Source: Clostridia bacterium
Lineage (GTDB): Bacteria > Bacillota > Clostridia > Peptostreptococcales > Anaerovoracaceae
NCBI GenBank assembly: GCA_030537495.1
Contig: JAUNMH010000007.1
Span: 1 to 64,000 of the forward strand
Direction: 5' to 3'
DNA: 64,000 nucleotides
Part shown: in pieces, positions 18,184 through 56,311 of the stretch
Layout: each line of letters begins with the position of its first letter
How positions within the stretch are numbered: the stretch's first letter is position 1
The notes under the pieces: model-generated
Database searches by the model: none
What the model was told of the DNA's origin: nothing
What the model saw: the letters and a program-made list of their open reading frames with translations, nothing else
Position numbers and translations under genes: made by a program

Positions 18184-18195
18184 CACAAATTTGTG
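18184..18195. promoter_or_regulatory. 12-bp perfect palindrome ahead of cobT
   Basis: CACAAATTTGTG sits just before TATTATAT (18197-18204), a possible -10 for cobT, so it overlaps the likely core promoter and could be an operator. No cobalamin riboswitch fits in the leader, which is under 60 nt. Confidence 0.35.
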
Positions 18196-18249
18196 ATATT
18201 ATATCGATGTATGCGTGCGCAGATTTTTATTATAGTTGGGAGGAAGAAA

Positions 18250-19383: not shown

Positions 19384-19919
19384 TGAATGTTTTTATAAGT
19401 GGTGGTTGCAAGAACGGCAAGTCCATGTATGCCCAGGAAATTGCTCGTGATATGGCCCGCGAGCAAGGCGTTCCTCTGTATTACCTTGCGACGATGATTC
19501 CCGTTGACGATGAGGACCGGGCGCGAATTAAAAGGCATATTGGCGAGCGCGAAGGTTGGGGTTTTACAACAATCGAGCAGGGGCGCAACATTCTTGTGGC
19601 TTTGGATCAGGAGGATGTGGATCCTCGCGGGGTTTTTCTCCTAGACAGCGTTACGGCGTTACTTTCTAACGAAATGTTCCAGCCGAATTTTGTCACTGAT
19701 TTTCAGGCTGGCCCAAGGGTGTCGGCGGAGCTAGTCCAGTTCTCAAAACTCACAGGGAACACAGTTTTTGTTTCTGACGGGATTTACTCCGACGCTCGGA
19801 TTTTCGACGATTATACAGAAGGCTATCGCAAGGCTCTTGCCACTGCGGACAAGGCTCTTGCTAAGGTTTGTGACCAGGTAATCGAAGTGGCTTACGGCCA
19901 CAGGCATTTCTATAAGTAG
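19383..19919 (+). CDS. cobU: Adenosylcobinamide kinase / guanylyltransferase
   Basis: 178 residues. CobU phosphorylates adenosylcobinamide and adds GMP. Walker A GGCKNGKSMYA, then YYLATMIPVDDEDRARIKRH (the family's DxxMxxRI-type region) and FLLDSVTALLSNEMF (Walker B). The usual C-terminal GIVP segment is altered here (SDGIYSDARIFDDYTEGYR), while a classic GIVP segment occurs in the short paralogue at 20821-21201. Coupled to cobT by a 1-nt overlap and 11 nt ahead of cobS. Confidence 0.9.
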   Translation: MNVFISGGCKNGKSMYAQEIARDMAREQGVPLYYLATMIPVDDEDRARIKRHIGEREGWGFTTIEQGRNILVALDQEDVDPRGVFLLDSVTALLSNEMFQPNFVTDFQAGPRVSAELVQFSKLTGNTVFVSDGIYSDARIFDDYTEGYRKALATADKALAKVCDQVIEVAYGHRHFYK

Positions 19920-19930
19920 AGGTATAAAAT

Positions 19931-20758
19931 ATGAAGTATATTACTGCTTTTTTCATGGCATGGGGTAATTTCATTACGCTCCCTTGTCCGCTGAAAAAAT
20001 GGGATAACAATTTAAAGAACCTGATGTTGGCGTTTTTGCCGGCTGTGGGGGCTGTTGTTGGAGTTCTGTGGATGGTGCTTTTTGTCGTTTTGCGCTCTCT
20101 GAACGCCCCGGTTTCTCTTGCATCTCTTGTTATGGTTTTCTATATTTTCGCTATTTGCGGTTTCATGCACATGGATGGATATATGGACTGTATGGATGCA
20201 ATTTTATCTAGACGCCCTCTCGAGGACAGACAGAGAATTTTAAAGGACTCCAATGTTGGAGCTTTTGCTGTTGTAACCTTGGTATTTTTAGTTCTCGCCT
20301 GGTACGCGACAATGAACATAGCGCTGCCTGTCAGCGACCAAATAAGCTTTCTGCTTATTCCTGTAATAAGCAGAGGCATGGCTGGATCTTTTGTCCTATC
20401 TTATAAGCCTATTGGACACAGTCAGTATGTAGAGGATTATAAGCAGCCTAACAGAGGAAAATACCATGCTGTTGTTCTTGTTCAAATGGCTGTAATCGTT
20501 ACTATTGCTGTAGTCTTTACATATATGTATTCTGCATCTGTCTTAGGTGCAGGAGTGAAAACTTGCCTCATTAATATGGCAATTCTCATAATTGTGCAGG
20601 CAATCGCATCTTTCATAGCTTGTGCCTACGCAAGAAAGCAGCTAGGAGGTATGAGTGGCGATATTGCTGGCTACACTATTTGTTTCAGTGAGCTGGCTGG
20701 CATTTTCACTCTGGCTCTTACTCAGTATTACACAGAAATGTTTGTTATGCCGATTTAA
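19931..20758 (+). CDS. cobS: Adenosylcobinamide-GDP ribazoletransferase (cobalamin synthase)
   Basis: 275 residues, integral membrane protein. Joins AdoCbi-GDP with alpha-ribazole (phosphate). The family's Asp-rich motif appears as HMDGYMDCMDA followed by RILKDSNVGAFAVV; several hydrophobic helices follow, with AYARKQLGGMSGDIAGY near the end. It ends in a hairpin formed by ATGCCGA / TCGGCAT (20747-20768). Confidence 0.95.
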   Translation: MKYITAFFMAWGNFITLPCPLKKWDNNLKNLMLAFLPAVGAVVGVLWMVLFVVLRSLNAPVSLASLVMVFYIFAICGFMHMDGYMDCMDAILSRRPLEDRQRILKDSNVGAFAVVTLVFLVLAWYATMNIALPVSDQISFLLIPVISRGMAGSFVLSYKPIGHSQYVEDYKQPNRGKYHAVVLVQMAVIVTIAVVFTYMYSASVLGAGVKTCLINMAILIIVQAIASFIACAYARKQLGGMSGDIAGYTICFSELAGIFTLALTQYYTEMFVMPI

Positions 20759-30794: not shown

Positions 30795-31784
30795 TTATCT
30801 GTAAATTCCGTATTTAATCTTTATTCTTTCTAGCTTTTCAATCATAGGATTTCCAATTACGAATATGCTTACTGCAGCTGTAATTCCGTGATACAAGTCA
30901 TAAGGCAAACCAGAAATGTACAGCATTCTCAAAGTATTAAAGCTAATATCACTTCCCGGAAGACCGCTCGACGTAAACATTGCCGCAATATTCATAATTC
31001 CCCCATAAATAATAACCGTAGTAAACAAGGTAAAAACAGTCAGACTTATGCTATCCACAGGCATTCTCTTTCTCTGAAGCAAGGCTCCAACTAAGAGTCC
31101 TAAGGCTCCAAAGGCATAAACTCTCCATCCCCAGAAAGTTGTATCTTTTCCCGGAACAAAGATATATGTGATATAGGCGACAACAATTCCAAAGAAGACG
31201 CACATAACAGGTCCCATTACCACTCGGAAAACTCTGGATTTCCTTTCTTCAAGAGCTGCTCCCGAGAATTCGCCTTCCCCATTGATTTCCTCGTATCTGT
31301 TTTTAACGGTAACCTTGTTGAAAGTCAAGCCAGCCAGGAATCCCAGCAGCCCCCAACAAAACATTTGCCACGGCGACCAAGGTCCCTGCCCCATATAGAA
31401 ATTGCAAACAAAACGTCCTAACGCGCCTACCATAAAGCCAGCCTCAGGCCCAAGGGCAACGCCAGAAATAATAATCATGGCAGTACCGATCTGGATTGGC
31501 ACTGTTACATGGAAGAAAAGCTGAGCGGCCACAGTAATAGCCGTCATCATAGCTATAATAACCACTTCCCTAGCCTTAGGCTTTCTCTTCTCGTAAATCA
31601 TGAAAAAAGGAACCATAGTGTAAATAACTATAAGTAAGCTGGTAATCATATACCTAGCGCCATCTAGCACAAGTGTACTGAATAAAATTGTAGCCGGCAT
31701 CAGAATAAAGATAAACAGCGCCGCCACAAGAGTTCTCTTTTTTGCAGCTTTCTGCCCTATTTCATCCAGGTTTCTTCTATCCAC
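30795..31784 (-). CDS. ECF transporter S component, probable cobalamin
   Basis: About 330 residues, eight or more hydrophobic helices with a charged internal loop (EEINGEGEFSGAALEERKSR). ECF S-component features: VTVPIQIGTAMIIISGVALGP and GRFVCNFYMGQGPWSPWQM. GTG at 31784 is preferred over ATG at 31802 because GGAGGAGG sits about 7 nt before the GTG, inside the end of the ATPase gene (28-nt overlap). Substrate is not readable from the sequence; cobalamin is inferred from the B12 riboswitch and the transcobalamin-like proteins in the operon. Last gene of the operon. Confidence 0.85.
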   Translation of the reverse strand: MDRRNLDEIGQKAAKKRTLVAALFIFILMPATILFSTLVLDGARYMITSLLIVIYTMVPFFMIYEKRKPKAREVVIIAMMTAITVAAQLFFHVTVPIQIGTAMIIISGVALGPEAGFMVGALGRFVCNFYMGQGPWSPWQMFCWGLLGFLAGLTFNKVTVKNRYEEINGEGEFSGAALEERKSRVFRVVMGPVMCVFFGIVVAYITYIFVPGKDTTFWGWRVYAFGALGLLVGALLQRKRMPVDSISLTVFTLFTTVIIYGGIMNIAAMFTSSGLPGSDISFNTLRMLYISGLPYDLYHGITAAVSIFVIGNPMIEKLERIKIKYGIYR

Positions 31785-33448
31785 TGAGCAACCTCCTCCC
31801 ATGTGATTCCTTCAGGGAACCATCTTCTTACGATGCGGTTAGCTGATGTTGTATAGAAGCTGTTTCCTGCAAAGAATTCCTTCGGCGTCCCTTCAGAAAC
31901 TACATCTCCATCAAAGAACATTGCACATCTATCTGCATATTCCGCACAGAACTCAATGTCATGAGAAACCATAAATATGGTAACTCCTGATGCAACGAGC
32001 TTATGAAGCACTCCTGCCAAAGTAATCTTAAAGAATGGATCCAGGCCCTTAGTCGGTTCGTCAAGAAGCAGAATTTCTGGATTTAAAAGAAGGATTTTTC
32101 CCATAGCCAGTCTCTGCTGTTCGCCACCCGACAAGTCATAAGGGTGAGATTTTCTCAAATGCTCAATTTCCATAAGTGCTAACATCTTCTCAATTTTATC
32201 AATTTTCTCTTCGTCTGAAATCTTCTCATAGTACAAAGCTTCCAGAAGCTCTTCCTCCACGGTGATCTCAGTGAACAGAGCCTGTGGGTTTTGGGGTAAC
32301 ATAGAAACCTTGCTCTGGTCAACCTTCACGCTACCCCTCTGCGGTTTGATAATGCCGTTAATAGCCTTCAGGGTAGTGGACTTACCGGCGCCGTTTCCGC
32401 CTAGCAAGCAGAAAAGTTCACCCTTTCTCACCGAAAGATTCAACCCTCTAAGTACATCCCCCGAGTCCTTGCTATATTTGAACCATAAGTCTTTTACCTT
32501 AATTACTTCCTCGCAGGCGCTCTTGTCACCGTCTTCTTTTCTATCAAAACCTCCAGCCCAAGCAGCTTCTTCTTTATCATTTAAGAAGCTTTCCAGCCAC
32601 AGTCTGCCCTCTCTAATAGTCAGCGGAGAAACTTCCTTATCATTTCTCTTGTACACAGGAACTCCTGCACCCCTGCACTGAGAATAAATCTTCATAATAG
32701 ACGGCATACCGTAGAACATTGGATGCCTGTCATTTTCACCCTCTCCTGCCAGAACATTTCCAATATTCCATGGCTCATCAAAGTCAACAATTTTTCCCTT
32801 ATCAATTACCATAACCTTGTCCGCCATAGTAAACAATTCTTCTAATCTGTGCTCAGAAATAATAATTGTAGTTCCCAGTTCTCTGTTAATTCTGTAGATT
32901 GTCTTCAGAAATTCAGACGCTGCAATAGGGTCAAGCTGTGAAGTCGGCTCATCTAATATCAAGACCTTCGGCTGCATAACCATAATTGAAGCCAGGTTCA
33001 AAAGCTGCTTCTGTCCTCCAGACAGCTCACTTACATTCTTTCTAAACCAGGTTTGAATATCAAAGAAGCTGGCCATTTCTGCAACTCTTCTCTTAATAGT
33101 TTTATTATCTAGTCCCAGACTTTCCAGTCCGAAGGCTAGCTCGTGCCATACCTTGTCAGTTACAATCTGGTTGTCTGGGTTTTGTTGTACGAAGCCGATT
33201 TCAGAGGCATTAAGTCTATCGTCTAAATCCGCAATAGCCTTGCCATTATAAAGCACTTCTCCCTCAAGCCTGCCGTAAGGCATTAGATTTTTCTTCAAAT
33301 GGCGCAATAAAGTACTCTTACCACAGCCGGATTTACCGCAAACTACTATGAACTCTGACTGCTCAACTGAAAAGGTAACATCCTCAAGTGCAGGCTTCAC
33401 AGCCGTTGGATATGTAAAATTTAAATCTTTAACTCGTATTGTTGCCAT
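31757..33448 (-). CDS. ECF transporter ATPase, fused EcfA-EcfA'
   Basis: 563 residues with two ABC cassettes in one chain. First: GKSGCGKSTLLRH, Q-loop FVQQNPDNQIVTD, signature LSGGQKQLL, LILDEPTSQLDP. Second (from about 315): GGNGAGKSTTLK, LPQNPQALFTE, LSGGEQQRLAMG, LLLDEPTKGLDP. The QNP Q-loops are typical of ECF ATPases that couple to EcfT. Start ATG at 33448 has AGGAG 7 nt upstream. Overlaps ecfT and the S gene by 28 nt each, consistent with strict co-translation. Confidence 0.93.
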   Translation of the reverse strand: MATIRVKDLNFTYPTAVKPALEDVTFSVEQSEFIVVCGKSGCGKSTLLRHLKKNLMPYGRLEGEVLYNGKAIADLDDRLNASEIGFVQQNPDNQIVTDKVWHELAFGLESLGLDNKTIKRRVAEMASFFDIQTWFRKNVSELSGGQKQLLNLASIMVMQPKVLILDEPTSQLDPIAASEFLKTIYRINRELGTTIIISEHRLEELFTMADKVMVIDKGKIVDFDEPWNIGNVLAGEGENDRHPMFYGMPSIMKIYSQCRGAGVPVYKRNDKEVSPLTIREGRLWLESFLNDKEEAAWAGGFDRKEDGDKSACEEVIKVKDLWFKYSKDSGDVLRGLNLSVRKGELFCLLGGNGAGKSTTLKAINGIIKPQRGSVKVDQSKVSMLPQNPQALFTEITVEEELLEALYYEKISDEEKIDKIEKMLALMEIEHLRKSHPYDLSGGEQQRLAMGKILLLNPEILLLDEPTKGLDPFFKITLAGVLHKLVASGVTIFMVSHDIEFCAEYADRCAMFFDGDVVSEGTPKEFFAGNSFYTTSANRIVRRWFPEGITWEEVAQWIEETWMK

Positions 33449-34332
33449 TTAAGTTCTCCTATTATATCTATCATTAGTGGAATCATCAGAAGTGCAGTGT
33501 ATGCTATGAAAGTCACTACAGTCATTAGATCCCAATTTGTAAGTACCACTACCGGATAGTAGTAAATTGAAGTTTTTCCAAGGGCACATCCTATAGCAGC
33601 GATGCCTCCACATAGGCCCATTGCTGCTAGCAACATTTTGTCTGTTTGTGTAAGCTTGAATAGGTGGAAGCTAGTTCTTCCCGGAAGTCCGTAGCCTCTC
33701 GCTTCCATGGAGTCCGAAGTTTCAATAGCCGCTTCTAGAGACCAGGAAATCAGAATAGAAACCTCTTTTGCTGTCTGACGAAGTTTTGATAAGTAGCTGC
33801 CTTTCTGATGGCGTCCCATGCACCTTTGCCCCATGGAGATTTCCTTATATCTGCTCTTTAGAAGTGGTATGAACCTGAAAATCATTGACAAAGTCAACCC
33901 CAGCACCGGCGCTATTTTACCAAAGAAATATATCAGTTTGTCAGAAGACATAATCACATTGAAACAGCTGAACCACACGATTACCGAAGACAACAGAACC
34001 GCTGCTGCCAGCCCATATAGTAAAGCCTCCAGAGTTATCCTTCCATAGTTCAAATAGAAGAGCACTGTAGCTCCGTTATGAGTAAAGAAAGTATTTATTA
34101 CCGTCATTATTATCAAAACAGGCACAGTGAATATTATATTTGTCTTAATCGCTTTCTTCCCGTTTAGCAGTATGGAATATGTCCACGAAAAAACAAGGGT
34201 CTCAGCAAGAAATGCCGGGCCCGTGGAAAACATGGTTATTCCGATTGTGAAAACAAAGTACATTAGATTAACTGCCGGGTGGCAGCACGCAAAGGTGCTG
34301 CCCTCTCCCAGGCCATTCTTAAACATTTTCAT
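33421..34332 (-). CDS. ECF transporter transmembrane component (EcfT)
   Basis: 303 residues. Five to six membrane helices and the long cytoplasmic coupling region with MGQRCMGRH and SMEARGYGLPGR, the two Ala-Arg-Gly-type coupling motifs that bind the ATPases (the first is degenerate). Forms the scaffold between the S component and the fused ATPase. Overlaps the ATPase gene by 28 nt and lies 18 nt downstream of the secreted alpha-barrel gene. Confidence 0.9.
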   Translation of the reverse strand: MKMFKNGLGEGSTFACCHPAVNLMYFVFTIGITMFSTGPAFLAETLVFSWTYSILLNGKKAIKTNIIFTVPVLIIMTVINTFFTHNGATVLFYLNYGRITLEALLYGLAAAVLLSSVIVWFSCFNVIMSSDKLIYFFGKIAPVLGLTLSMIFRFIPLLKSRYKEISMGQRCMGRHQKGSYLSKLRQTAKEVSILISWSLEAAIETSDSMEARGYGLPGRTSFHLFKLTQTDKMLLAAMGLCGGIAAIGCALGKTSIYYYPVVVLTNWDLMTVVTFIAYTALLMIPLMIDIIGELKWQQYELKI

Positions 34333-34350
34333 TATATCTTTAAATCTTCC

Positions 34351-35667
34351 CTATAGTTTTACCTTTTTAACCTCGCTATATGTTCCATATACTTTTACGC
34401 CGTTTACAGTCTTATATGCGCGAACTTTAACGAAGTAAGTTTTGTTCTTCTTCAGGCCGTTAACCTTTCCAGACACTGTATTTCTATTCTTTACAGTAGC
34501 CTTCTTAACGTCTTTGTTGAAGTTGGCGTTTGTTGATGTTGTAATCTGGTAGCCATCGCAAGCAGTTTTTGCTACAGCCTTCTTCCAAGTTGCCTTTAGA
34601 GTAGTCTTATTAACCTTTGCAACTTTGGAAATTGTTGTTCCCTCAGGAACTCTGCTCTTATATTCTGCTAGTGCATAGTATGCCTGCTCTGTTGCCATCT
34701 GGTTTACTACTGGCTTATAACCTGTTGTTGCCGTATTTACATGTCTGAATCCGCCACTCTTCTCATCATAGAATGTCATAATTGCGTCAACAGCAGACTT
34801 TCCATTTTTTACGAATCTCTTATCAGCATTAGGATTGATTCCGCAGGCTGTTAGTCCGCAGATAACTTGCGCGCTACTTTCAGAAGTAGTTGCGCCCATT
34901 GTAGAAAAGCCACCTTTGCTATCCTGAATCTTGGATAATGCAGCAACGCCCTTGTCTATTGCTTTCTTAACCTTCGTCTGGTTTCTATAAGGTGCAAGAG
35001 CAGATAAAGTCATGCCTGTAATGTCAGGATCAGCTTTTAACCTAGACTTGTTTTTCTCAAAATCTGCTTCTTTAGGATCGCTTACATATAGATTCCATCC
35101 ACCATCTTTTAACTGTGCATTAAGAATATGGTTGATCAGTTTCTGTTTGGTGGTTGGGTTCTTTACGCTGGCATCCTTTGGAATAGTATAATTCCCTGAA
35201 TCAAGTGCGCGAAGTGCCCAGATTGGTCCATTTAATCCCTGCCATATTACCTTGTCAAAATCAGCAAGTTTGGCTACCATGTCGTATCCAGCAATATTTG
35301 TAGGATCAAGGCCAATTGCGGAATATGCCACTATAACACGTGAATACTCAGTATACTTTCTATCGTGAAGAATCCCCGGAGTTCCGCGGAATCCTTCCTT
35401 TACTGCGTCTTCAACGGATTTCTGGTATGAGCTAATGTATTCTTTGGACATGGGGTATCCTGATATTCCAAATCCATACATTACCCACTCTCCGCCTATA
35501 CTGCCGAATTTCGGTTCTTTTATAGTCTTATAAATAAAGTTACCACATTTCTCGAAGTTTTGATTAATCTCTTTCTGTGTCGCTGCTGAAACGCTTGCTG
35601 CTCCACCAAATACTGATGAAGCTACCACTGCTACAGCTAGCAATGCTGATAATAATTTCTTTTTCAT
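34351..35667 (-). CDS. Secreted transcobalamin-like alpha/alpha-barrel protein with Fn3-like tail
   Basis: 438 residues. Signal peptide (LLSALLAVAVVASSVFGGAASVSA). Residues about 30-340 contain helical repeats of the squalene-cyclase/prenyltransferase type: NGPIWALRAL, QLKDGGWNLY, DITGMTLSALAPY, SKGGFSTMG, EKSGGFRHV. No DxDD cyclase motif is visible, so catalysis is unlikely. The animal B12 carriers intrinsic factor and transcobalamin use this fold for their large domain. Residues about 345-438 are an Fn3-like domain ending VKVYGTYSEVKKVKL. It lies between the DUF4430 gene (28 nt) and ecfT (18 nt). I infer an extracellular cobalamin- or corrinoid-binding protein. Confidence 0.8.
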   Translation of the reverse strand: MKKKLLSALLAVAVVASSVFGGAASVSAATQKEINQNFEKCGNFIYKTIKEPKFGSIGGEWVMYGFGISGYPMSKEYISSYQKSVEDAVKEGFRGTPGILHDRKYTEYSRVIVAYSAIGLDPTNIAGYDMVAKLADFDKVIWQGLNGPIWALRALDSGNYTIPKDASVKNPTTKQKLINHILNAQLKDGGWNLYVSDPKEADFEKNKSRLKADPDITGMTLSALAPYRNQTKVKKAIDKGVAALSKIQDSKGGFSTMGATTSESSAQVICGLTACGINPNADKRFVKNGKSAVDAIMTFYDEKSGGFRHVNTATTGYKPVVNQMATEQAYYALAEYKSRVPEGTTISKVAKVNKTTLKATWKKAVAKTACDGYQITTSTNANFNKDVKKATVKNRNTVSGKVNGLKKNKTYFVKVRAYKTVNGVKVYGTYSEVKKVKL

Positions 35668-35695
35668 TGTTGCTCTCCTCTTTGTTAGTTCGTTT

Positions 35696-36559
35696 CTATA
35701 GTGTTGAACCCATTGAGTTGTCCCCTACATCCTTACCTAAATCGCAAGTATATACCCATTTAATAACGTCTCCATCCTTCAAATAGTATGAGGAACATCC
35801 GTAATTAGGGAACCATCCATTTACCTTATACATCCAACCCGATAATTTTCCGCCGTCGAATTCGTAAAGATAATTAATTCCTTCGATATAATATGACTCG
35901 AATACCGGTGTATAACTGAATTCAAGCTGAATATCGTTGTTTCTGCAAAGAGCATTTAGCGCATCAAATACCGTGTTTTCTGTCGTTCCCTTATAAGTTG
36001 AAGTCTTCAAAATAACTCCATCCTTGGGAATGTAATCTTTAATTGCTGGGTTTTCCAGCTTGCTCATATCCGATGAAAGCGTATCGCATCTGATTTCTAA
36101 TGTTACTGTTACAGGCTTCGGTTTGCTAGGCTTAAGGGCCGCATTTCCTCCGTTGGAAGCAGTGAAATCATCCTTATTGTCCACAGCAACGTCGGACGGC
36201 TTAATGTTTTCTTTTTCCTTATCTGTCAACTTGGAAAGATCCTTCTTAGGCTTGCTTGTTGAATTAGATTTGTTGGACTTGTTGCTGTTCTTATCTTTAG
36301 CTTCCTCAGACTTCTTGCTGTCCTTCTTTTCCTTCTTGTCCTTGGTGTCTTTCTTGTCCTTTGCTTCAGCGGCATCCTTATCACTACCATCCGCAACAAG
36401 AGTAGTCTGACCATCCGGCAGCTTAGCATCTTTCTTTTCTATGTTCAATCCAACCACAGCCGAAATAATCACAAAAGCTGCCAGAGCCAGAAGCGCATAT
36501 TTCTTCCTACGCTTGTTCTTTAAGCTGGTAGCCAGTTCATTCTTTCTATCATCGCTCAT
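35696..36559 (-). CDS. Membrane-anchored DUF4430 (transcobalamin C-terminal-like) protein
   Basis: 287 residues. Basic N-terminus, single hydrophobic segment (YALLALAAFVIISAVVGL) as a signal anchor, a long Lys/Asp/Ser-rich linker (about 55-110) that can span the wall, then DUF4430 at about 150-280: TVFDALNALCRNNDIQLEFS, YEFDGGKLSGWMYKVNGWFP, SSYYLKDGDVIKWVYT. In intrinsic factor/transcobalamin the equivalent beta domain closes over B12. First gene behind the cobalamin riboswitch and 28 nt before the alpha-barrel gene, so the two halves of the animal carrier exist here as separate neighbours. AGGAGAG lies about 9 nt before the ATG. Confidence 0.88.
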   Translation of the reverse strand: MSDDRKNELATSLKNKRRKKYALLALAAFVIISAVVGLNIEKKDAKLPDGQTTLVADGSDKDAAEAKDKKDTKDKKEKKDSKKSEEAKDKNSNKSNKSNSTSKPKKDLSKLTDKEKENIKPSDVAVDNKDDFTASNGGNAALKPSKPKPVTVTLEIRCDTLSSDMSKLENPAIKDYIPKDGVILKTSTYKGTTENTVFDALNALCRNNDIQLEFSYTPVFESYYIEGINYLYEFDGGKLSGWMYKVNGWFPNYGCSSYYLKDGDVIKWVYTCDLGKDVGDNSMGSTL

Positions 36560-36600
36560 AAACTATCGCTCTCCTCTCACATTTCCTATGGTTTTCGCAT

Positions 36601-36630
36601 AAAAAAACTGCAAGCGATGTCTCGCCGCAG
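36601..36630 (-). terminator. Riboswitch-controlled intrinsic terminator
   Basis: Minus-strand hairpin CTGCGGCGA / TCGCTTGCAG (36630-36608, one bulge) followed by seven T (36607-36601). It lies between the aptamer and the DUF4430 start, as expected for a transcriptional OFF switch when cobalamin is bound. Confidence 0.85.
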
Positions 36631-36695
36631 CCCGTTTTTGCTGGTATCCAAATATTTTACACTTTTTGCTCGTGCTCCTTAGACACGTCAAAACC

Positions 36696-36890
36696 AACAG
36701 CTACGCATGTCTCCTGACTAAAATATCATCATCTTGCTCGCCTTCCCACCGGATTTTTCTTTTGCATTCACCCAGCAGTGGCTACCCGAACAAAACTCCA
36801 TCATTACAGTGGCGGGACCGTGCAGGACTCTAACCTGCTTCCATCTTAGCTCTGCAGAAGTGCAATCTTGCTGCAGAGAACATAGCTGTT
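36696..36890 (-). promoter_or_regulatory. Cobalamin riboswitch (canonical)
   Basis: All landmark elements are present on the minus strand: P1 AACAGCTA (36890-36883) pairs perfectly with TAGCTGTT (36703-36696); core hairpin GCAGG...CCTGC (36838-36822); CCCGCCACTG (36816-36807); GTGGGAAGGCGAGC; and the B12 box GTCAGGAGACATGC (36718-36705). It precedes the DUF4430-ECF operon. Confidence 0.95.
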
Positions 36891-36917
36891 CGTGCTTATT
36901 TAATTACTATCCATTTG

Positions 36918-36946
36918 ATTATATCATACGGACCTTTTCATTTCAA
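36918..36946 (-). promoter_or_regulatory. Sigma-A promoter of the riboswitch-ECF operon
   Basis: TTGAAA (36946-36941), exactly 17 bp, perfect TATAAT (36923-36918). The predicted start near 36911 is about 20 nt before P1. The -35 box touches the terminator hairpin of orr. Confidence 0.8.
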
Positions 36947-37014: not shown

Positions 37015-38103
37015 CTATTTGATGTATGCTCTGTCAACGTATGGACTTGTTGCAACCTTAAGCATGCCGCCGTATCCAAGCTCGAATTCAATAACATCTC
37101 CAACCTGGTAGTCTCTGTCGCAGTGAGTAACGTCCAAAATGATGTGGTCAGAGCTTCCTCCCATAATGTCAATCTGGCTGTCAACTGGTGTCATGCTGCC
37201 AAGATCAGTATCCTGCTTACCAACGCCGATAATGGCTCTCTTCATAATGCCTCTGTCCTCATAGTAAGGTTTTTCACCAAAGGCATCTACTCCTACTTCG
37301 CCGATTGGAAGAGAAGGTTTTTCCTTAAGCTCGATGATCTGAGCCTGAAGAATAAGCGCGTCGCTGACAGTGCCTGGAAGTTTTGTTTCATAAGCTGTGT
37401 CGTTTCCAAGAAGGAAGGACTCGCCAAGTCTTAGATTGTTGATTCCTTCAGGCATTTCGCCCTTATCAATTAGATAGATGGAGCTGGAGTTTCCGCCGGA
37501 AATCATTTCTAGCTTGATTCCGAATTTTTCTTCGATCTTTCTGCCGATTTCAACTAGCTGTGACAGGTTTTCGTTCTTTGGAATGATTGCACCGTAGCAA
37601 GTCAGGTTAACGCCGATTCCGTAAAGGTTGATGTTTTCCATTGATAAAATTTCTTCAACTGCTTCGAAAATCATTTCTTCGTTCTGGAAGAAGATTCCTT
37701 CTCTTAGGTCTCCAAGGTCAATCATTAGAAGGATATCGTGAACCTTCTTGGCTTTTGCAGCTTCCTTATTCAGAAGTCTGATTGTTGAAATTTCTGAGTT
37801 AAATGAAAGGTCAACATACTTAACAACATCTGCAACTTCGCTATGCATTGGAATTCTAAGAAGAACTGTCTTCTTGCCGTGATTTCTTACAAGCTTTGCG
37901 TAGCTTGCAATATTCTTAACTCTTGAGTCAGCAACGAAATCAACAGCCTCGCTTCTCGCGATCATCTTCACAACTTCCTTGTCAGCACAAACTCCCTTTG
38001 TTACAACCATTAGTGAACAATTTCCGTGGTCCTTAGTAATTGTTGCACATGCGTCAAGGTTTCCCTGCAACTTCTTTAAGTCGATTACTAGTCTTGGATA
38101 CAT
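37015..38103 (-). CDS. orr: Ornithine racemase
   Basis: About 362 residues. Alanine-racemase-like PLP barrel: RLVIDLKKLQGNLDA at the start, PLP lysine in LMVVTKGVCAD, MIDLGDLREGIFF, ISGGNSSS, NNLRLGESFLLG. Makes D-ornithine, the substrate of ornithine 4,5-aminomutase. The ATG at 38103 is favoured over 38109 because AAGGAG is 7 nt before the former and 1 nt before the latter. Last gene of the ornithine cluster, 31 nt after the GlmL-like gene. Confidence 0.93.
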   Translation of the reverse strand: MYPRLVIDLKKLQGNLDACATITKDHGNCSLMVVTKGVCADKEVVKMIARSEAVDFVADSRVKNIASYAKLVRNHGKKTVLLRIPMHSEVADVVKYVDLSFNSEISTIRLLNKEAAKAKKVHDILLMIDLGDLREGIFFQNEEMIFEAVEEILSMENINLYGIGVNLTCYGAIIPKNENLSQLVEIGRKIEEKFGIKLEMISGGNSSSIYLIDKGEMPEGINNLRLGESFLLGNDTAYETKLPGTVSDALILQAQIIELKEKPSLPIGEVGVDAFGEKPYYEDRGIMKRAIIGVGKQDTDLGSMTPVDSQIDIMGGSSDHIILDVTHCDRDYQVGDVIEFELGYGGMLKVATSPYVDRAYIK

Positions 38104-38133
38104 TTTCATTCTCCTTTTTAAATTTACAATTTA

Positions 38134-39849
38134 CTATTTCACTCTGTTCGGGCAATTTCTTCTAGTGCAGTGTTTGCAGTCGTGAGTGCAGTCGCCCATA
38201 TCCTGTCCCTTAGCTTCCCATTTGCCCTGGACACCGCCACCTGCTCTCAGCTCCGCCTTATCATCAAAACCCACTTCCGGCTTCTTGCCCAATTCATGTG
38301 CTCCGCCAATAGGTTCTTCTTCCTTAAATGCGCTCATATCGTAGCCCATTGCTTCGCATTCTTCAATGTGCTTCTTGTATTCCGCATCTCTCTCCTCAGC
38401 TTCTCTTGTAACTCTATCAACTTCCTCCATATACTTGGCAGTTGAAACAATTGCCTCGTCATTTTTCTTTTCAGGGAACTTCATTCCTAAACTCTTTTCA
38501 AGAAGTCTGATAGCTCCCTCTCTGTGAGTCTTTGACAAAACTCCCAAAGATGCCATAATATAATCGTTATCAACAAGAATCTTAGCATGATCAGTTGGGA
38601 ACAACATCATGCCTGTCTCATTATGCTTTGCGATCTCCTCCATAATTTCAACTCTATGAGGTAGTCTCGTCAAAGCTCCACCTGTTCCAACAATATATTT
38701 AACCTGTGTCAGGTCCTTGCCTTCAGCAACGGTGCTTCTTCCAGATGGTCCGTAGATATATCTGATAATTCCTGCATGTCTTTCGACTGCCTTAAGAACA
38801 GCTTCCTTAGTAAGTCTTTCAACGAGCTTAATTTCGTCCTCAGTCTTAGGAATTGCGACATAGCTTTCAAGAGTTTTATCTAAATCGATACCCATCTGCT
38901 CGCATTCTTTTCTCAGCTTTGGCTCACCGATTGATTCAATTACCTTCATTCTATTGACGTATACGCCTAGGTCTCCCTCTACGGTTCTCTTAGCCTTAGG
39001 TTCAGGCGAAATCATAATTCTAGCAATTTTGTCAGACTCTGTAGCCACAGAGTGAAGGTCCGTAGTTGCTCCACCAACGTCAAGAACGATTAAATCTCCC
39101 AGACAGTCATAAAGAAGCTTGGTACATTCCATAACCGCACCCGGTGTAGGAATAATTGGTCCATTAACCATGTCTCTTACATGTTCCATTCCCGGTGCAT
39201 GAATAATGTGGTCCTCAAAGGCATCCTGAATAACCTTTCTGCAAGGTTCAACATTTAGATCGTCAATCTTAGGATATACATTTTCTACATTATATAGCTT
39301 CTGTCCGCTTTCTTCATCGAAGATGAGTCTCATTTCTTCCTGATTCTCGATATTTCCTGCATAAATTACAGGAGTCTTCAAGCCCATGGAGCGAATAAGC
39401 TCTGCGTTATCTAAAGCTGTATCTCTTTCACCATAATCTACTCCACCTGCAATTAAGATAAGATTAGGGTTAATTTCTTTAATCTTTGCTACGTCAGTTC
39501 TTCTAAGTCTTCCTGCAGTAATGTAGTGAATAATTCCACCTGCGCCAAGAGCTGCTTCCTTTGCTGCCTTTGCTGTCATATCGTATACTAGACCGTGAAC
39601 CGTCATCTTAAGTCCGCCTGCTGCTGATGAAGTTGCAAGCATTTCGTCATATTCCAGACTATCTATTCCCATTTTTTGGCAAAGATCATCTACTGCGCCC
39701 TGCAATCCAATTCTTACATCGCCATCCATAACAGATGTTGGTGCTTGACCCTGAGCCCAGAATACAGGATTCTCTGTATCTAGATCCTTAAAAGCATTTA
39801 CAACGGTAGTAGTAGAACCGATTTCAGCTACTAATACATCTACTTTCAT
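38134..39849 (-). CDS. GlmL/MutL-like protein of ornithine degradation
   Basis: About 571 residues, ASKHA ATPase fold: VLVAEIGSTTTVVNAF (phosphate 1), LILIAGGVDYGERDT, LIVLDVGGATTDLHSV (phosphate 2), YIVGTGGALTRLP. Related to GlmL of glutamate mutase; in ornithine clusters it is thought to reactivate the B12 mutase by releasing damaged cofactor (family inference). The extreme C-terminus is Cys-rich, C-x3-C-x2-C-x4-C (CTHDCKHCTRRNC), possibly a metal or cluster site. The ATG at 39849 has AGGAGG 8 nt upstream. It is separated from oraE by 184 nt with a strong terminator-like hairpin. Confidence 0.88.
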   Translation of the reverse strand: MKVDVLVAEIGSTTTVVNAFKDLDTENPVFWAQGQAPTSVMDGDVRIGLQGAVDDLCQKMGIDSLEYDEMLATSSAAGGLKMTVHGLVYDMTAKAAKEAALGAGGIIHYITAGRLRRTDVAKIKEINPNLILIAGGVDYGERDTALDNAELIRSMGLKTPVIYAGNIENQEEMRLIFDEESGQKLYNVENVYPKIDDLNVEPCRKVIQDAFEDHIIHAPGMEHVRDMVNGPIIPTPGAVMECTKLLYDCLGDLIVLDVGGATTDLHSVATESDKIARIMISPEPKAKRTVEGDLGVYVNRMKVIESIGEPKLRKECEQMGIDLDKTLESYVAIPKTEDEIKLVERLTKEAVLKAVERHAGIIRYIYGPSGRSTVAEGKDLTQVKYIVGTGGALTRLPHRVEIMEEIAKHNETGMMLFPTDHAKILVDNDYIMASLGVLSKTHREGAIRLLEKSLGMKFPEKKNDEAIVSTAKYMEEVDRVTREAEERDAEYKKHIEECEAMGYDMSAFKEEEPIGGAHELGKKPEVGFDDKAELRAGGGVQGKWEAKGQDMGDCTHDCKHCTRRNCPNRVK

Positions 39850-39972
39850 TAACGTTTCCTCCTTAACTTTTTCTAATAAATCCACACAACTAACAGTTTT
39901 GGTTGAAGCCTTTTGTGGCTTTAGGGCTTCTATTGACTCCTTTCGGTGCCTGGTTATCTCTATGCATTTATT

Positions 39973-40002
39973 AAAAAACGGGAACGGGCACAGCCCGTCC
40001 CC
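39973..40002 (-). terminator. Terminator between oraE and the GlmL-like gene
   Basis: Minus-strand hairpin GGGGACGGGC / GCCCGTTCCC (40002-39993 with 39989-39980, one mismatch), then GTTTTTT (to 39973). It should reduce transcription into the GlmL-like and orr genes. A second hairpin GAAGCCC / GGCTTC lies at 39930-39905. Confidence 0.8.
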
Positions 40003-40033
40003 TTATAATTTGCTTTTACAGCTGAGATTCGGA

Positions 40034-42250
40034 TTATAATTCTCCTCTTCTTCTCATAGCTTCTTCTGCTAAGAATGTAGCAACATCGATACCATGTGAG
40101 TCTCTTCCGAAACCTGCATCGATACCAGTCTTAACAGCATCTTCAGGAATAACCTGAGTACCGCCAGCAGCGATAATAACCTTATCTCTGATACCCTTTT
40201 CAACTGCTAGGTCGTTGATTCTCTTCATGTTCTTGTAGTGGATGTTGTCATGTGAAATGATTGTTGAAGCTAAGATAGCATCAGCATTCAATTCGATTGC
40301 AGCGTCAACAAGCTTTTCAACTGGTACTGAAGTTCCTAGGTAGTTAACCTTGATACCCCATTTTTCGATTCCGCCGTGCTTGATGTTGATGATTTCACGA
40401 AGACCTACTGAGTGTTCGTCTTCACCAACTGTACCGCAAACTACTACCATTGGATGTTCTGAGAACTCATTGAATAGAGTAGCGTCATCTAAGTGATGTG
40501 GTTCAGGTGGAATTTCCAGGTTAGTTGGGTCAACATCGAATGTAAGTTTACCCTTCATTTCGATTCTTGTACCTTCAGCTTCCTGCATTACTTCCTTACT
40601 GATAACTGTTGGTTCTTCTAAGCCTAGCTTTCTACCAATTTCTACAGCTACAGCTTCAGCCATTCTAGCGTTTGTAGGAATCATCATTGTAATCATGATG
40701 GTTCCGTCTCCACACCATTCCATTTCAGGCTTAACAGCTTCGCCATCCAGGTATTTTTCGACCTTTTCTAATCTTCTGTCAACGCAGTCTTCTTCGTCTA
40801 ATTCGTCAATGTATACGATCTTACTTCTGTCTTCGAATGTACATCCGCCGATTAAAGCAGCTGGATCTTCAGGATCTCCACCGTACTGTTCAACGTTGTT
40901 GTAACCGAAGTGAGCTGTTACTGGAGCCATGTAGTCATCTTCTCTTTCGAAGATGTATCCATAGCCTACGCCACCTTCGATCTTTCTAGCGATACCGTCT
41001 CCGTTTCTTTCAGGATACTTAGCTGAGTCTACGAAGAAGCCTTCCTGTACAGCCTGGAAGTATCCGCCAACTTCGATGATTTCTTCCATGAACAGAACTG
41101 CTCTTTCCTTAATGTCTCTAGCCATTTCACGAAGAGGTCCGTCCTGCTTTAATTCTACCATTTCCATTAGACCATCTAATCCGATTAATGTCTGCTTAGC
41201 ATTGTCGCAAGCTTCCATGTTGTAGATGTGCCATGGAACGTTTCTTCCTTCGTCAGGAGTGATTGTTGACTGAATATCAGCGCTAGTTAACTTGGAAATG
41301 AACATGTTCATTACGTGAGTTACTGTAGCTTCTCTTGCTGATGAGCAGATGTACTTAGTATTCTGCTGAGCTCTCATCTTGTATCTTCCGCAGAAGTCAC
41401 GAAGTGCTACTGCATATGGAAGGTCATAGTATACGCAAGGTGCAGGAGTTGCAGTTGGAGGTACAGTTGAAAGAGCGATGTGGTCAGGCTTGATACCAAC
41501 TTTTTCTGAGAACAGTGAGTTGATAGCGTGTTGAACGATTAGCTCTGGCATTACCTTCCAAGCTTCTCTTGCTGTAGCGTTAGCGTTATGAGCTCCGTCA
41601 ATCTGAAGGATATCAGCCCATGCTAAGATTTTCTTTGATTCGCAAGCGTCTACGAATGATCTTACGCAGTTGATATCTCTGTAAAGTACGTTGTACTGAG
41701 GGTCCTGGTGAGCACCGTTGATACCTTCTTCAGCGAACATTACTGCTACGTCTGGTCCTGCTACACCTGATACATATGAATGATAGTTGATTGGACGACC
41801 AACTTCATCTTCAATTAGATCTAAAGCCTTTCTCTGAGCTCTAACCTGTTTTCTAGTTACAGGAATACCACCGATACCTTGTGGAGTACCTTCCATAAGT
41901 CCGTCGATATGTGACTGACCCATATGTCTGATAACCATGATATGGTCTGCACCATGCCATGCAGCCATTCTCATTCTTCTGATGTCGTCTTCGAATCTAC
42001 CGGAAGCGATTTCTGTAGTGATTACAGGAAGTGGCTGTGGGTCGATGTTTTCGAAGAACTTAGCTGGTGGAAGACCAACGCTGTTCTTTAGAGGTTCTGA
42101 AGCATCATGGTATTCAAAAGGTCCCATTTCAATTCCAGGAGCAGGTTTTCTCCAAACCCATCCTCTTCTTCTTGGTTCATATTTATCAAGATCTTTTAGT
42201 ATTTCTCTTACGTCTAACTTTTCGTTTGGCTGTAATTTGATTTCTGACAT
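40034..42250 (-). CDS. oraE: D-ornithine 4,5-aminomutase, large (beta) subunit
   Basis: 738 residues. Adenosylcobalamin- and PLP-dependent; moves the terminal amino group of D-ornithine to give 2,4-diaminopentanoate. TIM-barrel domain first, then a C-terminal Rossmann-type B12 domain with the base-off motif D-x-H-x-x-G as DEHSVG (axial H613), and K624 eleven residues later, the same spacing as the axial histidine and PLP lysine reported for the Clostridium sticklandii enzyme. GGxQ-type end IIAAGGTQVIPEDA. GGGAGG precedes the ATG. It is 13 nt after oraS. It is the main B12-requiring enzyme in the window. Confidence 0.96.
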   Translation of the reverse strand: MSEIKLQPNEKLDVREILKDLDKYEPRRRGWVWRKPAPGIEMGPFEYHDASEPLKNSVGLPPAKFFENIDPQPLPVITTEIASGRFEDDIRRMRMAAWHGADHIMVIRHMGQSHIDGLMEGTPQGIGGIPVTRKQVRAQRKALDLIEDEVGRPINYHSYVSGVAGPDVAVMFAEEGINGAHQDPQYNVLYRDINCVRSFVDACESKKILAWADILQIDGAHNANATAREAWKVMPELIVQHAINSLFSEKVGIKPDHIALSTVPPTATPAPCVYYDLPYAVALRDFCGRYKMRAQQNTKYICSSAREATVTHVMNMFISKLTSADIQSTITPDEGRNVPWHIYNMEACDNAKQTLIGLDGLMEMVELKQDGPLREMARDIKERAVLFMEEIIEVGGYFQAVQEGFFVDSAKYPERNGDGIARKIEGGVGYGYIFEREDDYMAPVTAHFGYNNVEQYGGDPEDPAALIGGCTFEDRSKIVYIDELDEEDCVDRRLEKVEKYLDGEAVKPEMEWCGDGTIMITMMIPTNARMAEAVAVEIGRKLGLEEPTVISKEVMQEAEGTRIEMKGKLTFDVDPTNLEIPPEPHHLDDATLFNEFSEHPMVVVCGTVGEDEHSVGLREIINIKHGGIEKWGIKVNYLGTSVPVEKLVDAAIELNADAILASTIISHDNIHYKNMKRINDLAVEKGIRDKVIIAAGGTQVIPEDAVKTGIDAGFGRDSHGIDVATFLAEEAMRRRGEL

Positions 42251-42263
42251 CTTTTTTTCCTCC

Positions 42264-42617
42264 CTACTTGAATAGTGCTACTGCATCATCCCAGTATTCA
42301 CCCTGAGCAAGCTTTTCGCTAGCTTCTCTGATGGAGATGCCTTTATCTTTAGCTACTTTGTATACAACGTGTCCAGTTCCATGTCCCATAAGTCCTCTGT
42401 CCATGCAACCTTCTACGATTTTCTGAGTGTCCAGTGATGATACACCCATTCTTAGAAGTACAGCTCTTTCTACGGAAGGAGTTGTATTCTTTCTTCCTAA
42501 TTCAAGTAGAGGATCAACAACCTGAGCTGTTAATTCCCAGAATCTGTCGTATAATTCTTCGTCAGTAAGATTTGCAATGTGTGCTCTTCTCTGAGCGAAA
42601 TCGTCTGCTCTTTTCAT
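42264..42617 (-). CDS. oraS: D-ornithine 4,5-aminomutase, small (alpha) subunit
   Basis: 117 residues, the usual size. All-helical: FAQRRAHIANLTDEELYDRFW, then DPLLELGRKNTTPSVERAVLLRMG and GRGLMGHGTGHVVYK-like region (RGLMGHGTGHVVYKVAKDKG). Partner of OraE in the heterodimer-of-dimers. GGGAG 7 nt before the ATG; 25 nt after ortB. Confidence 0.95.
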   Translation of the reverse strand: MKRADDFAQRRAHIANLTDEELYDRFWELTAQVVDPLLELGRKNTTPSVERAVLLRMGVSSLDTQKIVEGCMDRGLMGHGTGHVVYKVAKDKGISIREASEKLAQGEYWDDAVALFK

Positions 42618-42642
42618 TCTTTTTCTCCCTTATGTTTAAAAA

Positions 42643-44052
42643 TTATAATGCTGCTAAAGCTTCTTTTACGAATGCTTCGTCAGTTTTAGTCTCAGCGATT
42701 AAGAACTTAATGTCGTCTTCTGATAATTCAGCAGGAGCCAGTCCTGACTTCTTAACTGCCTTCTTGATAAGTGATCTTCTGAAGCGGTTAATGTCTGCTT
42801 CCTTATACTTCATAAGACCTGGATCTGAAGGAAGAATTAGGTTCACACCTGGGTGATCTTCTTCAGGGCTTCCGAATCTTACATCGATTCCATTTTCTTT
42901 TGCGAATGCAAGCTGAGGCTGGATATGTTTTCCTGCACCAGTGTATTCAGTTTCAGATACAACTAGAACTGCATCTTCAGGAAGTTCCTGAGCTAGTGAG
43001 AATGCTGCTGCTAAAGCTGTATTTCCTGCAGGTCCTCTTTCGATACCTTCGATGTTTGCAAGCATTTCAGTAGTGTACATTACTTCACCCTGAGTTACTG
43101 TTACATATCTATCCATATATCTTAGAGGTCTTGCTGCTGAACGTGGAACGTCACTGTGGTCTGGATCAGTTGCATAAGGAACACCGAATCCAGTATGTCC
43201 AGTTGTACATGATTTCTTGTTAAAGTCGGTATCTGATGCCATTGAAAGTCCTGTTAGGTCGATGGAAGCAGCTACTACTGTAGCGTCACAGCCAGCTTTC
43301 TTAAGTCCTCTGGCTGTACCTGTTACCATACCGCCACCTGCTGTAGTGCAAACTACCATGTCAGGGTCTTTTCCTAACTTTTCACGGCACTGCATTGCGA
43401 TTTCATAACCCAATGTATCGATACCTGCGATACCAAATGGTGAGTACAGTGATGCGTTGAAGTATCCTGTATCTTCAAGAATTGAAAGGAATGAATAGAA
43501 AAGTTCTGGTCCTACAGTAAGCTGAACAACTTCTGCGCCTAGAGCTTCGCACTTTCTTGCCTTTTCAACGATTTCAGGCTGTCCAATTCCCTTTGAGTCG
43601 TAGCATTCCTGAACGATGATGCACTTCAATCCCTGCATAGCAGCCTGTGATGCAACTGCAGCACCATAGTTTCCTGATGTAGCAGCCATAACGCCCTTAT
43701 AGCCTAGCTTCTTAGCGTGAGCAACTGCACATGCAGCACGTCTGTCCTTAAATGAACCTGATGCGTTGCAAGCTTCGTCCTTAACGAAAATTCTAGCACC
43801 ATATCCTGGTTTAGCATATTTTCTGGATAATTCAGTCATATTTCTCAGTTCAAGTAGCGGAGTATTTCCTACGCCGTGTAATCCCTGAATTCTGTTGATT
43901 TCATCAAGAGTATATCCTGTTGAAGTCATAAGAGCATCGTAATCGAATGCGATTGGAGATCTTTCGAAGTCTGCATAGTCAAGACCTAAAGCGTTCTTCT
44001 GGATCTCATTTGATCTTCCCATTACTGACTGGTAGTCTTTTGCTAATGCCAT
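42643..44052 (-). CDS. ortB: 2-Amino-4-oxopentanoate thiolase, OrtB subunit
   Basis: 469 residues. PLP fold type II like threonine synthase: PLP lysine in CNASGSFKDRRAAC, ATSGNYGAAVAS, TTAGGGMVTGTARGL, and SETEYTGAGKHI near the end. With OrtA it cleaves 2-amino-4-oxopentanoate with CoA into acetyl-CoA and alanine. The ATG overlaps the ortA TAA (TAATG), so the subunits are translationally coupled. Confidence 0.95.
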   Translation of the reverse strand: MALAKDYQSVMGRSNEIQKNALGLDYADFERSPIAFDYDALMTSTGYTLDEINRIQGLHGVGNTPLLELRNMTELSRKYAKPGYGARIFVKDEACNASGSFKDRRAACAVAHAKKLGYKGVMAATSGNYGAAVASQAAMQGLKCIIVQECYDSKGIGQPEIVEKARKCEALGAEVVQLTVGPELFYSFLSILEDTGYFNASLYSPFGIAGIDTLGYEIAMQCREKLGKDPDMVVCTTAGGGMVTGTARGLKKAGCDATVVAASIDLTGLSMASDTDFNKKSCTTGHTGFGVPYATDPDHSDVPRSAARPLRYMDRYVTVTQGEVMYTTEMLANIEGIERGPAGNTALAAAFSLAQELPEDAVLVVSETEYTGAGKHIQPQLAFAKENGIDVRFGSPEEDHPGVNLILPSDPGLMKYKEADINRFRRSLIKKAVKKSGLAPAELSEDDIKFLIAETKTDEAFVKEALAAL

Positions 44053-44357
44053 TATTCTTCACCTCCAAATTTCATGATTTCTCTGAGCTGTCTATCAATC
44101 TCGATGATTTCAGGAACGAATACACCGTAGCTGTGGTTGTAGTAAGGATTTTCTTCGATAAGAGTTCCTTCTACCAAACGACCAACTGCAGTCTTAACTG
44201 TTACTTCGTCACCAATCTTAGCTTCTTCATCCTGAAGGAATCCCTTTGTCCACTGCTGAAGGTCGCACTTCATAGTGTCTTCAGGAAGCTTAGCTGTTCT
44301 TTCTTCTGCTTTAAGAACGATGGAGTGAATGCGCACCCAATCTCCTCTCTTTGCCAT
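44052..44357 (-). CDS. ortA: 2-Amino-4-oxopentanoate thiolase, OrtA subunit
   Basis: About 101 residues, a small beta-rich protein: AKRGDWVRIHSIVLKAEER, VTVKTAVGRLVEGTL, SYGVFVPEIIEIDRQLRE. ATG at 44357 is favoured over 44366 because AGGAG abuts the latter but is 9 nt before the former. Partner of OrtB, overlapping it by 1 nt. A hairpin without a proper T run separates it from ord upstream. Confidence 0.93.
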   Translation of the reverse strand: MAKRGDWVRIHSIVLKAEERTAKLPEDTMKCDLQQWTKGFLQDEEAKIGDEVTVKTAVGRLVEGTLIEENPYYNHSYGVFVPEIIEIDRQLREIMKFGGEE

Positions 44358-44393
44358 GGTTATCATCTCCTATTCAGATAAAAATGAGCACAC

Positions 44394-44421
44394 AAGCGGG
44401 AAGTATCTCATACCCCCGCTT
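44394..44421 (-). other. Hairpin between ord and ortA
   Basis: AAGCGGG / CCCGCTT (44421-44415 with 44400-44394) closing a second GTAT/ATAC stem. A short T run (CATTTTTATC) follows 8 nt later, so it may be a partial terminator or a processing site. Confidence 0.55.
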
Positions 44422-44479
44422 ATGTTAAAAATATGTAATGTTATAGGTTTTTAATTTTTCGTATTAACAAGTCGCAGGA

Positions 44480-45541
44480 CTATTTTACGATTTTGCAATC
44501 TTCGTCAACTAAGTTTCTCATGTCTCCCATGATAGCTCTAGGTACAGGAATGTCAATCATTGTCTTAAGACCTGGCTTAGCGTTGATTACGTGTGGAATT
44601 GTGTTCATGATCATAGCCATCGTTCCGATTCCGCCTTCGATTTCTGGAGTATTAGCCATGTTTACAGGTGGAATACCCTTAATTTCTACATAGTCACCAG
44701 TGTGAACGCCAACCTGTTCAGGTTCGATCTGCTGAGGGTGATCCATTTCGATCTTAACTTCTCCGTCAACAGTTCCCCATCCCTTCATTGCAACGCCAGC
44801 AACCTGTCCAGCAGCAGCAAATCCGTAAGGTGATTTTCTATCAACATCTGTTACGATTGGTTCCATATCCTGTTCGAACTTTTCAAGATCCCAGCCAAGA
44901 GCATCGCAGATCATTCCTACGGATTCAGCGAATCCTACGTGACCAGCCATAGTTCCGTCAGCTTTTCTCTTCATGAAGTCTTCTACTTCTACGCCGATTC
45001 CCTGTTCTTCCATTACAGCAGGTCCGAATGGTGATAAGCTGTTAACTCTTCTTGATACGATGTGGTCAACAGTTTCACAAGCACCTGTCCAAAGAATTAC
45101 AAGAAGGTCCATGATAAGACCAGGGTTGATTCCTGTTCCTAGAACAGTAACTCCGTTAGCCTTAGCGATTTCGTCTAACTTCTTAGCTAATTCAGGTTCC
45201 TGAGCCTGAGGGTAAGCCATTTCTTCAGCTGAAGTAATAACGTTCATTCCGTTTTCCATTACGAAAACTAACTTATCATATACTTTTGAAGTGAATGAGT
45301 CTGTGCAAACTACTACGATATCAGCAGCACCTGGCTTGATAACTTCTTCAGCAGTTCCAACGATAACATCTTCTCTATCGCCTCTTTCGATTCCAGGAAC
45401 TACTTCGTATAAGCTCTTGCCAAGCTTGTTTCCGATGTCGATAGCGCCAACGATGTCAACACCTTTTTTCTTAGTTAACATTTTGCCGATTCCGCCGCCC
45501 ATAGCGCCTAATCCCCAAAGGATTACTTTTACATTTTTCAT
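44480..45541 (-). CDS. ord: 2,4-Diaminopentanoate dehydrogenase
   Basis: 353 residues. NAD(P)-dependent oxidative deamination of 2,4-diaminopentanoate to 2-amino-4-oxopentanoate. Rossmann start VKVILWGLGAMGGGIGKML, GAADIVVVCTDSF, GTGINPGLIMDLLVI. A longer frame reaches 45622 but homology and AGGAG (10 nt away) support the ATG at 45541. First gene of the ornithine operon, about 90 nt downstream of a consensus sigma-54 promoter. Confidence 0.95.
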   Translation of the reverse strand: MKNVKVILWGLGAMGGGIGKMLTKKKGVDIVGAIDIGNKLGKSLYEVVPGIERGDREDVIVGTAEEVIKPGAADIVVVCTDSFTSKVYDKLVFVMENGMNVITSAEEMAYPQAQEPELAKKLDEIAKANGVTVLGTGINPGLIMDLLVILWTGACETVDHIVSRRVNSLSPFGPAVMEEQGIGVEVEDFMKRKADGTMAGHVGFAESVGMICDALGWDLEKFEQDMEPIVTDVDRKSPYGFAAAGQVAGVAMKGWGTVDGEVKIEMDHPQQIEPEQVGVHTGDYVEIKGIPPVNMANTPEIEGGIGTMAMIMNTIPHVINAKPGLKTMIDIPVPRAIMGDMRNLVDEDCKIVK

Positions 45542-45630
45542 TTGCTTTTCTCTCCTTTTTTCATTAAAAAATAATCTGAACTGAATTTGCGTCGTTCTTG
45601 GGTGCCCCGAGGCACTCTGCACATATATAA

Positions 45631-56233: not shown

Positions 56234-56311
56234 CTTTTGGGGTAAATCATCTTAATAAGATTAATGCAAAAATAAGCTATACAAATTACAGCTATTTCAC
56301 TTCTTATGTTT

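Follow-up and report, generated by a model that had tools for sequence, protein, structure and literature searches.

A riboswitch-controlled operon pairing two putative extracellular corrinoid-binding proteins with an ECF importer in a Clostridia genome

In energy-coupling factor (ECF) importers, vitamin binding is ascribed to the S component only, and extracellular capture of vitamin B12 by Gram-positive bacteria is, to our knowledge, largely unknown. The surface B12 lipoproteins of Bacteroides are named BtuG. Here we analysed a 64,000-nucleotide (nt) stretch of DNA (the window; positions 1 to 64,000 of contig JAUNMH010000007.1, assembly GCA_030537495.1) from a Clostridia bacterium of the family Anaerovoracaceae, in which a cobalamin riboswitch precedes genes for a DUF4430 protein, a secreted barrel protein and an ECF importer. 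We propose, with a probability that we put at roughly 0.85, that this operon is a B12 (corrinoid) capture-and-import system whose two surface proteins act together as the binder.

The closest described systems were reported by Burroughs et al. 2007 (PMC1796856). In that account, a transcobalamin-like SLBB clade of low-GC Gram-positive bacteria is fused to alpha/alpha toroids and found in operons with CbiO and CbiQ, and its carriers are usually without key B12 synthesis enzymes; such surface proteins were predicted to scavenge B12 or its precursors, and a transfer to animals was proposed. The window operon resembles these systems in its DUF4430-type beta-grasp domain, in a secreted or surface protein with an alpha/alpha toroid, and in its CbiO-like ATPase and CbiQ-like genes. 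It differs in its riboswitch, a feature nowhere mentioned in the 2007 paper, and in its S component and split gene pair, neither of which appears in the passages considered here, and its genome has a cbi operon, although "usually" sets no strict limit on the 2007 carriers. The interpretation is thus not new in kind, B12 scavenging by such Gram-positive proteins having been predicted in 2007. What is new here is the riboswitch statistics, the CbrT-type S component, the split pair and the occurrence in an apparent B12 producer; together with the fold match of a natural fusion, the first two strengthen the evidence for the predicted kind. We found no experimental test of the 2007 prediction in the open literature, preprints and subscription papers being outside the scope of the search, and the locus stays of interest because that prediction is old and apparently was never put to experiment.

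Three further systems are comparable. ECF-CbrT of Lactobacillus delbrueckii (6FNP, PMC5997447) is an ECF importer with a related S component, which is itself presented as the binding protein; a lipoprotein is mentioned nowhere in the text of that paper. In contrast, the window co-encodes dedicated ATPases, EcfT and two extracellular proteins. The Bacteroides proteins (PMC6143338) likewise capture B12 at the surface and feed an importer, but they are Gram-negative surface lipoproteins. Finally, animal transcobalamin, haptocorrin and intrinsic factor combine an (alpha/alpha)6 barrel with a DUF4430 beta domain in one soluble chain, whereas the window encodes two chains, one of them membrane-tethered, that would feed an ECF importer; sequence similarity between the animal binders and the bacterial families is very weak.

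The operon lies on the minus strand and runs from position 36946 down to 30795, from promoter through riboswitch and hairpin to the five genes (Table 1). Every element that an initial annotation of this DNA had listed was found in place, and family matches bore out the proposed order of DUF4430 protein, barrel protein, EcfT, fused EcfAA' and S component. The riboswitch match exceeds the RF00174 gathering score of 31.5 bits, and our own covariance model, R1, gives it 113.7 bits. The promoter and terminator that had been claimed for the operon were both located, and the terminator-like hairpin is the probable off-switch.

Table 1. Features of the window and, in the last three rows, related loci on named contigs of the same genome (aa, amino acids; ABC, ATP-binding cassette).
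Feature	Coordinates	Strand	Evidence or detail
Sigma-70-type promoter TTGAAA-17-TATAAT, extended -10 (TG)	36918..36946	minus	11/12 consensus positions; consensus match only
Cobalamin riboswitch aptamer RF00174	36687..36900	minus	Rfam 101.8 bits, E 2.5e-24, full-length
Intrinsic-terminator-like hairpin and T-run, between riboswitch and first gene	36610..36626	minus	
DUF4430 protein, 287 aa, transcobalamin C-terminal-like beta-grasp/SLBB	35696..36559	minus	PF14478 69.2 bits, E 4e-19
Secreted (alpha/alpha)6-barrel protein, 438 aa, C-terminal fn3-like module	34351..35667	minus	
EcfT (CbiQ family) transmembrane component	33421..34332	minus	PF02361 27.2 bits (cut-off 25)
Fused EcfAA' ATPase, two ABC domains	31757..33448	minus	PF00005 199 bits in 2 stretches; TIGR04520 above cut-off
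CbrT-like ECF S component, 335 aa, extra N-terminal membrane region	30795..31802	minus	PF07155/PF12822
Ornithine degradation genes orr, GlmL-like accessory, oraE, ortB, ord	37015..45622	minus	directly upstream of operon
Giant secreted DUF4430 protein, 2891 aa	47422..56097	minus	DUF4430 at residues 2440-2514; GLUG and Big_3 repeats
Divergent cobalamin-riboswitch-like element before 2891 aa gene	56294..56566	minus	RF00174 21.0 bits (sub-threshold), E 0.006; R1 32.8 bits, E 5.6e-5
Cobamide lower-loop assembly genes cobT, then cobU-like, cobS-like	18193..20758	plus	cobU/cobS putative, named from sequence and order
Locus L017 (contig C5)	2420-10907	plus	466 aa secreted barrel protein; short cobalamin riboswitch (136 nt); 2056 aa fusion of barrel and DUF4430
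Locus L018 (contig C15)	9372-15544	minus	short cobalamin riboswitch before 244 aa and 1528 aa DUF4430 proteins, beside cobQ, cbiC
Locus L020 (contig C36)	1939-12232	plus	3291 aa protein carrying DUF4430 twice, behind a riboswitch; close to contig end

Comparison of the S component with the sequences of the PDB returned 6FNP chain A (ECF-CbrT, E 4e-7) as the sole credible match. CbrT is a demonstrated B12 S component that transports cobinamide too (PMC5997447). With a CbrT-homologous S component, EcfT and two ATPase domains all encoded in the operon, assignment of the transporter to the B12 (CbrT) type is supported, and transport of cobalamin and cobinamide is predicted. Import of cobalt by a module of the CbiMNQO type could be envisaged from the membership of EcfT in the CbiQ family and from the B12 riboswitches that can also sit on Ni/Co transporter operons (PMC2667541), but the S component is CbrT-like and the operon holds neither CbiM nor CbiN, which leaves this explanation barely tenable.

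The DUF4430 protein reads as an N-terminal membrane anchor followed by a lysine/aspartate-rich linker and the DUF4430 domain. Its score against PF14478 exceeds the curated cut-off of 23.8 bits, and the C-terminal domain of human transcobalamin (residues 334-406; sequence checked against PDB 2BB5) scores 25.0 bits, just above that cut-off. The two proteins are thus members of one Pfam family, as expected from the common fold that had been suggested for them. Searches of the PDB with the single DUF4430 and barrel sequences gave nothing useful, and a DUF4430-profile search of the PDB found no relatives. The 438 aa protein alone shows weak squalene-cyclase and fn3 family matches, and its family profile matches squalene-hopene cyclase with an E value of 6e-9; relatives also carry S-layer homology domains. 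An AlphaFold2 model of this protein is a helical barrel with a core predicted local distance difference test (pLDDT) score of about 95 and a poorly predicted fn3-like tail. Profile and model agree with the squalene-cyclase fold read from the sequence initially.

To place the operon among related loci, we scanned the GTDB species genomes, which yielded at least 572 DUF4430 relatives, and kept 80 loci from Clostridia, Paenibacillus, Bacillus, Enterococcus and one Coriobacteriales metagenome-assembled genome. Of the 77 analysable loci, 48 have EcfT as the gene immediately after the DUF4430 gene, and 45 have a barrel gene no more than 400 bp away. Of 119 genomes belonging to the same family, 76 gave barrel matches, some of which cover only the C-terminal fn3-like module. 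R1, trained in part on these same loci, detected a total of 66 riboswitches, spread over 49 of the 80 loci; 62 share the strand of the operon, and 48 have a DUF4430, barrel or EcfT gene as their immediate downstream neighbour. Of 4000 random positions, 204 (about 5%) satisfied a comparable criterion. With the Rfam model itself, 49 of 50 of these genomes gave cobalamin riboswitches, several coinciding by coordinates with hits at the loci (e.g. L056, L096, L123, L128). A regular-expression scan was abandoned for the covariance model as too noisy (48 hits versus 18 in reversed sequence). The search for the gene pair behind B12 riboswitches elsewhere, proposed when the operon was first described, thus returned a recurring order and riboswitches far above chance. 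The operon is not a chance assembly, the same gene set being seen again in dozens of genomes, and the split gene pair is a common arrangement, not one unique to this genome. Small cysteine-rich proteins were also seen in this survey: locus L064 (6765-8963, plus strand) has a tandem array of three riboswitch units, two of which precede near-identical proteins of this kind (94 aa), and a similar protein lies beside a riboswitch at L019 (9298-9666, minus strand) in the window's genome.

Twenty proteins among the 80 loci carry barrel and DUF4430 domain in one chain. So does a 2056 aa paralogue encoded behind a cobalamin riboswitch in the window's own genome, whose barrel is 34% identical to the 438 aa protein and whose DUF4430 domain is 60% identical to that of the window over 55 residues. 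A compact fusion of 478 residues from Bacillus ndiopicus (L128), also behind a riboswitch, is homologous to both window proteins, with 40% identity to the 438 aa protein over 310 residues and 55% to the 287 aa protein over 84 residues. We predicted its structure (pLDDT 81) and compared the model with 350,542 PDB chains using Foldseek. The 15 top ranks were filled by transcobalamin, haptocorrin and intrinsic factor (E values between 2e-10 and 1e-6), with alignments spanning both domains. The likeness of the pair to these animal proteins, which the initial annotation had drawn from the two folds, is thereby borne out on a natural fusion, as is the structural match to the transcobalamin domains. 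Through L128 the window pair has the (alpha/alpha)6 barrel plus DUF4430 beta domain architecture of the animal binders. It does not share their one-chain layout, since the window has two genes; fusion into one chain is seen in the paralogue and in relatives.

We suggest the following mechanism. At low intracellular cobalamin the riboswitch would leave its terminated state and the operon would be transcribed, as expected from the riboswitch family and the terminator. The secreted barrel at the cell surface or wall would form the alpha half, and the membrane-tethered DUF4430 protein the beta half, of a binder of the intrinsic factor/transcobalamin type. Together they would trap a corrinoid outside the membrane; the CbrT-like S component would then receive it, and EcfT-AA' would drive its import with ATP. 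That two separate chains could form one clamp is suggested by the existence of fused relatives. Alternatively, the importer may carry B12 while barrel and DUF4430 protein bind corrinoids separately, for example for storage in the wall or for delivery, and never as a joint clamp. The two are indeed separate chains, 17 of the 80 loci have DUF4430 and ECF genes with no barrel gene found nearby (some of these on short contigs), many giants carry DUF4430 without a barrel, and the alpha domain lines much of the cavity in animal transcobalamin (PMC1796856). Yet natural fusions are many, barrel and DUF4430 genes are closely adjacent in 45/77 loci, and one B12 is sandwiched by both transcobalamin domains (PMC1796856). 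We therefore consider separate binding rather unlikely and favour the joint binder; corrinoid capture and import as such by the window operon is well supported.

Several results weigh against our proposal. The riboswitch counts rest on a model whose training set overlaps the loci that it scored. In the L128 model the two domains are undocked, so that overall superposition on transcobalamin is poor (root-mean-square deviation 23 A); what the model shares with transcobalamin is the pair of folds in their sequence along the chain, and not a closed clamp. With the 438 aa barrel alone, Foldseek placed terpene cyclases in the lead and transcobalamin at rank 20, and the barrel is closer in sequence to squalene-hopene cyclases than to the animal B12 binders. 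The window barrel has no PF01122 match, and only 2 of 72 relatives have one (best E 0.008). When the bacterial families were compared profile to profile with three mammalian transcobalamins, no significant match emerged, although the DUF4430 regions aligned in plausible register. Finally, the genome contains an anaerobic cobamide synthesis (cbi) operon (CbiD, CbiJ, CbiG, CbiB, CbiC, CbiA/CobQ-type and CbiL/F/H-type methylases) as well as BtuFCD-like genes. The host is thus an apparent B12 producer, and the import route of the window need not be essential.

The terpene cyclase matches, best both in sequence and as a single-domain fold, raise the question of whether the barrel is such an enzyme, or another one, with the DUF4430 protein serving adhesion and the pairing with a B12 transporter incidental. 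However, the DXDD motif of class II terpene cyclases reads DPDI in the window barrel, and its third aspartate is replaced by a hydrophobic residue (I, M, V or L) in 70 of 71 members of the barrel family. Because this motif is broken, the barrel is more likely a binding than a catalytic protein. The proteins are moreover secreted, and their association with riboswitches and the operon is far above chance, which makes an enzyme or adhesin paired by accident very improbable. At its residues 340-437 the 438 aa protein has an fn3-like tail that also ends many unrelated-looking secreted proteins in the family. Comparison of the C-termini of the 438 aa and 2891 aa window proteins with those of proteins from loci L017, L018, L020 and L021 showed a C-terminal module (KTKKKTVKVNVK...ASRVWVK) that is nearly the same among the giants. 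These shared modules are possible wall-attachment modules.

The captured ligand could be a B12 precursor or analogue (cobinamide, cobyric acid or other cobamides) and not cobalamin itself. The window carries cobT with neighbouring salvage-type genes, CbrT carries cobinamide as well (PMC5997447), and the transporters of B12 precursors in gut genomes have been called an open problem (PMC6593275). On the other hand, the lower ligand is not fixed by sequence, and the riboswitch reports cobalamin and not the transported species. We regard a precursor as possible, with the odds leaning against it.

The whole genome (1.92 Mb) holds eight DUF4430 domains and as many riboswitches that reach the gathering threshold, and every DUF4430 gene cluster uncut by a contig end sits behind a riboswitch, one of them sub-threshold. 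The initial annotation, sound in its description of the operon, had overlooked these paralogous systems and the weak riboswitch-like element before the 2891 aa protein, which is possibly a further member of the same regulon. Directly upstream, the operon adjoins a large consumer of B12, since OraE is the B12-dependent D-ornithine 4,5-aminomutase. Between the elements of L018 lies a second weak riboswitch-like match (R1 27 bits), and at 7302-8411 of that locus (minus strand) a strong cobalamin riboswitch (103.5 bits) precedes a xylose-isomerase-like TIM-barrel protein. At L019 (contig C15, 2328-9194, minus strand), a riboswitch precedes the gene of a CbiK cobaltochelatase-family protein whose signal-like N terminus and C-terminal fn3 module suggest secretion. 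Two more proteins that are secreted, a BtuF-like binding protein and ABC genes come next; an extracellular chelatase would be odd. Another strong riboswitch (90 bits) at L023 (contig C1, 7805-8023, minus strand) has its next sizeable same-strand gene, which is no obvious B12 gene, about 650 bp downstream at 5880-7148.

The most far-reaching form of our proposal is a two-chain, wall-/membrane-tethered clamp, a homologue of the protein from which animal intrinsic factor and transcobalamin descend, that would close over corrinoids at the Gram-positive surface, would pass them to an ECF S component and would have expanded here into riboswitch-controlled giant surface binders in a B12-making species. 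We see the case for it as evenly balanced. Such a clamp would make up a hitherto untested class of extracellular receptors serving ECF transporters. If our proposal is right, extracellular B12 receptors of this family would be widespread among bacteria of gut and soil, and a bacterial protein related to intrinsic factor may be a competitor for B12 in the gut. The operon would also offer a direct route to testing whether, as proposed in 2007, the B12 binders of animals came from Gram-positive bacteria.

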